Assembly: GCA_029782355.1 (NCBI GenBank)
Contig: JAKOUY010000040.1
Location: 186,001-250,000 of the forward strand
Source: Actinomycetes bacterium
GTDB taxonomy: Bacteria > Actinomycetota > Acidimicrobiia > Acidimicrobiales > Ilumatobacteraceae
Direction of reading: 5' to 3'
Length of the DNA stretch: 64,000 nt
Shown here: in pieces, positions 7,585-11,890 of the stretch
Numbering within the stretch: position 1 is the stretch's first letter
Layout of the letters: each line of letters begins with the position of its first letter
The notes under the pieces: model-generated
What the model was told of the DNA's origin: nothing
Seen by the model: only the letters and a program-made list of their open reading frames with translations
Databases searched by the model: none
Program-made: the position numbers and the translations under genes

Positions 7585-7590
7585 TACAGT
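7585..7590 (+). promoter_or_regulatory. -10 box TACAGT for the ArsC-like gene
   Basis: TACAGT ends six bases before ATG 7597, which fits leaderless transcription. No Shine-Dalgarno is visible, so this also supports the start at 7597, upstream of the in-frame TGA. Confidence 0.6.
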
Positions 7591-7596
7591 CGGCCC

Positions 7597-7962
7597 ATGG
7601 CCCAGGTCACCATCTATCACAACCCGAACTGAAACAGCTCCAGCAATGCCGTGCGCATTGCCGAGGAGATGGGTGTCGATCACACCGAGGTGCGCTACCT
7701 CCAGTCGCCGCCGGACGCGGCCACGCTGCGGGCGATCATCGCCAAGCTGGAGGACCCGGTCACCGATCTGGTCCGCCGCGACGCCCACTGGAACAAGCTC
7801 GGCCTCACCGACGCCGACGTGGCGACCGCCGATCAGGTGGTGGCGGTGCTCGGTGCGCACCGGCAACTGATGCAGCGACCGCTGGTCGTCACCGCCGACC
7901 GGGCGATCATCGGTCGCCCGAAGGAGCGGGTCCGCGAGATGTTGGCCGCCCTGCCGCGCTGA
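7597..7962 (+). CDS. ArsC-family protein with in-frame TGA at catalytic position 12: probable selenoprotein
   Basis: ArsC/Spx-like thioredoxin-fold protein of 121 residues if codon 12 (TGA, 7630-7632) is read as selenocysteine. The N-terminus reads MAQVTIYHNPN-[TGA]-NSSSNAV. In ArsC the motif is IYHNPxC with the nucleophile Cys12, so the TGA falls exactly on the catalytic residue. Downstream the frame is intact and family-like to a normal stop: VRYLQSPPD, then RPLVVTADRAIIGRPKERV, which holds the arginines that bind oxyanion in arsenate reductases. The Arg usually found four residues after the Cys is Ser here. A hairpin matching the bacterial SECIS pattern follows the TGA (7643-7661). The alternative is a nonsense mutation or sequencing error. 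Substrate (arsenate or another oxidised thiol or oxyanion) is not established. Confidence 0.82.
7643..7661 (+). promoter_or_regulatory. Bacterial SECIS-like hairpin downstream of TGA
   Basis: A perfect 7-bp stem, GCAATGC (7643-7649) pairing with GCATTGC (7655-7661), closes a five-base loop CGTGC (7650-7654). The loop begins 17 bases after the TGA and has G at its second position. These features fall inside the usual bacterial SECIS description: loop 16-37 bases from the UGA, stem 4-16 bp, G in the first two loop positions. The stem uses AAT and ATT codons, which are uncommon in this GC-rich DNA, as expected if RNA structure is selected. Confidence 0.72.
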
Positions 7963-11804: not shown

Positions 11805-11806
11805 TC

Positions 11807-11890
11807 GTCGTGGGTCCGACGTCATGGGTCCGACGTGGTGGGTCCGACGTGGTGGGTCCGACGTGGTGGGTCCGACGTGGTGGGTCCGGC
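11807..11890. repeat. 14-bp tandem repeat x6 between metH and pepA
   Basis: Six direct copies of a 14-bp unit, consensus GTGGTGGGTCCGAC: copy 1 has GTC-GTG, copy 2 GTC-ATG, copies 3-5 match the consensus, copy 6 ends GGC. The array fills 84 of the 159 bp between the divergent metH and aminopeptidase starts and abuts the metH -10 box. It could be a repeated regulator site or a simple expansion. Confidence 0.9.

Follow-up and report, generated by a model that had tools for sequence, protein, structure and literature searches.

We describe a gene (7597..7962, forward strand, stop codon included) whose product is very probably a glutaredoxin-linked ArsC-family selenoprotein, 121 amino acids long with selenocysteine (Sec) at residue 12. 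It lies in a 64,000-nucleotide stretch, referred to here as the window, of the genome of an aquatic actinobacterium (Acidimicrobiales, Ilumatobacteraceae). The in-frame UGA at codon 12 is almost certainly a Sec codon, recognised by SelB and tRNA-Sec with the help of a hairpin at 7643-7661, as comparison of 189 loci and linkage to selA indicate.

The frame opens at ATG 7597-7599, meets TGA at 7630-7632, the codon corresponding to the catalytic Cys12 of plasmid R773 ArsC, and continues for 109 codons to the stop TGA at 7960-7962. Its translation begins MAQVTIYHNPN-U-NSSSNAVRIAEE and runs through to that normal stop. With the TGA read as a residue, the protein matches Pfam ArsC (PF03960) over its full length (9e-15, 55.2 bits against a cut-off of 24), and its best-scoring NCBIfam model, again full length, is TIGR00014 arsC (1.5e-27, 96.4 bits with Cys standing in for Sec, a little short of the equivalog cut-off of 106.05). 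An earlier reading of the DNA letters, made without database searches (hereafter the sequence-only reading), had proposed an intact ArsC-like frame with TGA at the catalytic Cys codon and 109 codons from there to a normal stop; the whole-length matches and the coordinates bear out both points. It had also predicted that standard gene callers would truncate or miss the gene, and mechanical calling indeed returns only a 103-residue open reading frame from GTG 7651, devoid of the active site. Gene callers will lose the first 18 codons of Sec-ArsC and, with them, the active site.

Relatives were drawn from two sets that may share organisms. The first covers 298 genomes from the window's order, of which 190 have a relative, and its fetched loci have TGA at codon 12 in 77 cases and TGC or TGT in 32; the second, a named collection, has 58 and 22, respectively. 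Together, codon 12 is TGA in 135/189 loci and TGC or TGT in 54/189, with no other codon at this position.

Active site and candidate function

Across an alignment of 35 sequences, residues 12, 60, 94 and 107 never vary, and they fall in register with those of R773 ArsC, so that the window protein carries the arginine triad 60/94/107 of glutaredoxin-type ArsC. In R773 ArsC this triad is reported to be essential, whereas YffB, a relative presumed to act on another substrate, lacks two of the three arginines (PMC3169414). The AlphaFold2 model of the window protein has a pLDDT of 94.5, and the best matches of the predicted fold are the arsenate reductases 1i9d and 1jzw (VIA Z 15.6), a value equal to or slightly over that for Spx and over that for YffB, with an identity that exceeds both. 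In the model, Sec12 is predicted to lie at the N-terminus of helix 1, beside Arg60, Arg94 and Arg107.

Because every active-site residue of R773 ArsC is retained, Sec taking the place of Cys12, arsenate reduction is our best guess for the function, held with modest confidence. The selenolate would attack an oxyanion, likeliest arsenate, to form a Se-As(V) adduct. Beyond residue 12, 129 of the 135 Sec proteins lack Cys, and the window protein has no other Cys at all, so an outside thiol would have to resolve this adduct. Mycothiol is a candidate in view of an MshC-like gene in the source genome, which scores slightly under its cut-off; a search of the same genome for the actinobacterial glutaredoxin family TIGR02200 gave no match. 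The thiol and a redoxin would then release arsenite and regenerate Sec, and Acr3 would export the arsenite. Taken jointly, these steps from adduct to export and regeneration seem to us somewhat probable.

A rather doubtful, yet credible, alternative is that the same selenoprotein is not mainly an arsenate reductase, and that the ArsC fold serves a Sec-dependent thiol or selenenyl oxidoreductase or a reductase of another oxyanion. ACR3, ArsI and ArsR are all present in the source genome, where arsR is divergent from arsI/cadI-acr3 (locus L145, contig C27), and the presence of Acr3 and ArsR speaks for arsenate, as do the three invariant arsenate-binding arginines, two of which YffB lacks. That ars cluster has no arsC, however, and ars genes lie beside none of the 189 loci searched; the relatives' loci likewise revealed no conserved operon and no strongly conserved neighbours. 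The genome also encodes a second ArsC-like protein (L147:1456-1896, minus strand), of the low-molecular-weight phosphatase class, Cys-containing and below all NCBIfam cut-offs, and Sec-ArsC therefore need not be the reductase that feeds Acr3. The spread of Sec-ArsC over many genomes of one order, and an active-site loop, UNSSSN, without the Arg found in CGTSR of R773, also favour the alternative. Arsenate reduction nonetheless remains the function that we prefer.

Conservation and decoding of codon 12

Most of the named relatives come from Ilumatobacteraceae or elsewhere in Acidimicrobiales; Cys forms are seen in Janibacter, Ornithinimicrobium, Terrabacter and others, and Ilumatobacter nonamiensis YM16-303 (L164), a named strain, carries the TGA form. 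A tree of the family requires at least eight Sec/Cys changes, as estimated from few columns and resolved only in part. The sequence-only reading had proposed to look for Cys/Sec exchange at codon 12 in a homologue alignment, which is what the 135 TGA and 54 TGC or TGT codons represent. What it would have counted against itself, a TGC or TGT at 7630-7632 and random stops or frameshifts in relatives, did not occur: the TGA recurs at codon 12 in many independent assemblies, in frames that are otherwise open. As a separate observation, several more distant ArsC paralogues (L112, L115, L113, L100, L105, L120 and L078) likewise have TGA as their codon 12; their loops include UGKSR, their hairpins differ, and they are perhaps the outcome of separate Sec/Cys exchanges.

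The source genome (3.79 Mb, 98% complete) contains the full set of selenocysteine genes whose absence would have told against recoding: selA and selB are adjacent (369 and 285 bits, each above its NCBIfam cut-off), selD scores 329 bits, and a tRNA-Sec with a UCA anticodon scores 65.6 bits against a gathering score of 47. Among the fetched loci of the first set, selA accompanies 76/77 TGA rows versus 10/32 Cys rows (Fisher p 2e-14, with relatedness ignored), and the sole TGA row without it comes from an 83%-complete genome. One genus within the window's own family contains both states, as genome G232 has TGA and selA, and G102, which is 99% complete, has TGC, no selA match and a decayed hairpin. 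Across the order, selA lies above its cut-off in 175/298 genomes; according to a review, selenoproteins are rarely retained by aerobic bacteria.

Upstream of the gene, a putative -10 element, TACAGT (7585..7590, forward strand), lies 6 nt before the ATG. A TANNNT motif ends 6-8 nt before the ATG in 46/47 loci of the window's clade and is rare at other spacings. This fixed distance supports ATG 7597 as the start and suggests that the mRNA is probably leaderless, with its 5' end at or beside the ATG.

It is very improbable that the TGA is a true stop, whether the gene is a pseudogene, the codon a sequencing error, or translation begins at GTG 7651 to give a 103-residue protein without the catalytic residue. 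Mechanical gene calling yields exactly this last product. Against all of these stand the recurrence of TGA at this codon in 135 loci, drawn from many assemblies, which leads us to reject pseudogene and sequencing error, and its tight linkage to selA. Furthermore, the relatives keep both frame and protein on either side of the TGA, third codon positions dominate the substitutions (38.0 per pair versus 19.6 and 17.4 at the others), and the first 11 codons are conserved, as is their distance from the -10 element.

Hairpins downstream of the UGA

The sequence-only reading had noted a perfect 7-bp stem closing a five-base loop, in agreement with the usual description of a bacterial SECIS element. 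The window sequence does contain this hairpin (GCAATGC at 7643-7649, CGTGC at 7650-7654 and GCATTGC at 7655-7661); 17 nt separate the TGA from the loop, whose second base is G, and the hairpin fits the published bacterial model, which asks for a loop of 3-9 nt, a stem of 4-16 bp, a spacing of 16-37 nt and G within the first two loop positions (PMC13188914). The outermost pair, 7643-7661, is missing in 26/49 relatives, so the stem conserved in evolution is one of 6 bp (7644-7649 with 7655-7660, apical loop CGUGC at 7650-7654, forward strand), whose six pairs are present in 49/49 sequences of the clade, one G-U among them.

A single rule-fitting hairpin is weak evidence by itself, because the fold z-score of the window hairpin is only -1.4 and hairpins that fit the rules with 6 bp or more are found in 17/54 Cys homologues, versus 128/135 TGA homologues. 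It is conservation that lifts the window hairpin above chance. No covariation was found within the window's own clade, since the stem is nearly invariant there, and the evidence in this clade is instead a synonymous freeze: codons 17-21 are synonymously fixed, whereas codons 14, 15, 22 and later ones vary. The stem codons are AAT in 48/48 and ATT in 49/49 sequences, versus 6/41 Asn codons (15%) and 12/304 Ile codons (4%) elsewhere in the same genes of the clade. The rarity of these codons and the selection on the RNA that the sequence-only reading had deduced from it are thereby upheld, the freeze being limited to codons 17-21. On these comparative grounds, we take it that the hairpin is a real SECIS. 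An Rfam scan of the window gave no matches. Elsewhere in the window, positions 11806-11888 hold a tandem array of the 14-bp unit CGTGGTGGGTCCGA in 5.9 copies, flanked by metH and a leucyl aminopeptidase-like gene.

In a sister clade the hairpin has another sequence, CCUUGGC-GGUC-GCCGAGG, and lies about 6 nt farther downstream than in the window's clade. Pairing holds in 99% of cells of this stem; both-sided changes occupy 27 cells, versus 6 in shuffles, and the three pairs in which both sides have changed are far above shuffled and slid controls. Codon 19 (Leu or Val) covaries with codon 23 (Glu or Thr), and because the two change together, the RNA stem appears to dictate protein residues in this clade.

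The search for other selenoproteins in the source genome proceeded one family at a time, and its list is a lower bound. Three UGSC-family genes have an in-frame TGA at the UGSC motif (L134, C19:297875-298303; L135, C14:57500-57907; L136, C35:389523-389978), two of them with strong hairpins directly after the TGA and only L134 above the NF041046 cut-off. A peroxiredoxin with an in-frame TGA in TPGUT (L139, C13:89334-89711) and a thioredoxin-like protein with one in PTUGVC (L143, C14:36537-36860) are likely further selenoproteins. No in-frame TGA was found in the matched part of the molybdopterin oxidoreductases (PF00384, L129-L133) or of SelD (L017) of this genome; in a 2006 survey, each selenoproteome included FdhA or SelD (PMC1794560). 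A TGA flagged at the CysRS match proved to be a stop just upstream of that gene. Suppression of the codon-12 TGA as another residue, such as Cys or Trp, with no role for selenium, is scarcely credible given the conserved SECIS with its compensatory changes, the tRNA-Sec in the genome, the co-occurrence with selA and the several other TGA-containing selenoprotein families alongside.

Novelty and relation to known systems

The kind of enzyme is already known: the Sargasso Sea survey of 2005 described UxxS-type Sec-ArsC (14 sequences; PMC1088965), and the GOS survey of 2008 did so under the name 'ArsC 1' (77 sequences; PMC2398784). The sequence-only reading had rightly stated that metagenomic surveys report ArsC-like selenoproteins. 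Sec-containing ArsC is also listed in reviews, and corresponds to the TIGR00014 entry of one from 2026, with MBT3519430.1 as example sequence (PMC13188914). A text search of the literature, with most subscription journals outside it, did not turn up papers about selenocysteine in Acidimicrobiia or about Ilumatobacter selenoproteins. As far as the literature searched shows, what is new is the breadth of Sec-ArsC in Acidimicrobiales, the presence of two SECIS designs in homologous genes and, probably, the leaderless mRNA.

We tentatively combine these observations into one reading, plausible but short of probable, in which Sec-ArsC would be lineage-wide in Acidimicrobiales, its leaderless mRNA would have a 5' end only some 34 nt away from the UGA, and two homologous clades would carry different SECIS sequences about 6 nt apart, with pairing that dictates residues 19 and 23 and a substrate that may not be arsenate. 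If so, SECIS elements would be replaceable within one gene. A little-studied metagenomic selenoprotein family gains a host group, a decoding machinery and natural Cys revertants, and selenocysteine use extends across many genomes of an order on which the literature searched says almost nothing. Because a carrier strain is named, I. nonamiensis YM16-303, activity and selenium dependence become testable.

Spx binds RNA polymerase. Spx and YffB share the fold of the window protein (VIA Z about 14-15), but its sequence and curated-model scores for them are clearly lower, and the Spx models TIGR01617 (55 of 75 bits) and PRK01655 (36 of 123 bits) stay under their cut-offs. YffB further differs by its lack of the arginine triad (PMC3169414). 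The UxxC-form selenoprotein (NF041106; 'Arsenate reductase 2' of GOS, cd03032) is likewise a Sec-containing member of the ArsC superfamily, but has a second Cys in its motif, and NF041106 is absent among the NCBIfam matches of the window protein. The closest known systems include the glutaredoxin-dependent R773 ArsC (PDB 1i9d, 1jzw), with the same fold, register and numbering of residues 12, 60, 94 and 107; it differs in having Cys12 in place of Sec, CGTSR in place of UNSSSN, and about 140 residues rather than 121, and shares about 33% identity; the host of the window protein probably uses mycothiol rather than glutathione. Of the same kind are the UxxS Sec-ArsC proteins of the marine surveys, which share the family (Pfam03960/COG1393/TIGR00014), Sec at the catalytic Cys, Ser three positions on (here UNSS, residues 12-15) and a bacterial SECIS shortly downstream. 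Those are environmental sequences; for the family as seen here, a host group, the decoding genes of one and the same genome, Cys revertants and a conserved SECIS are available as well.
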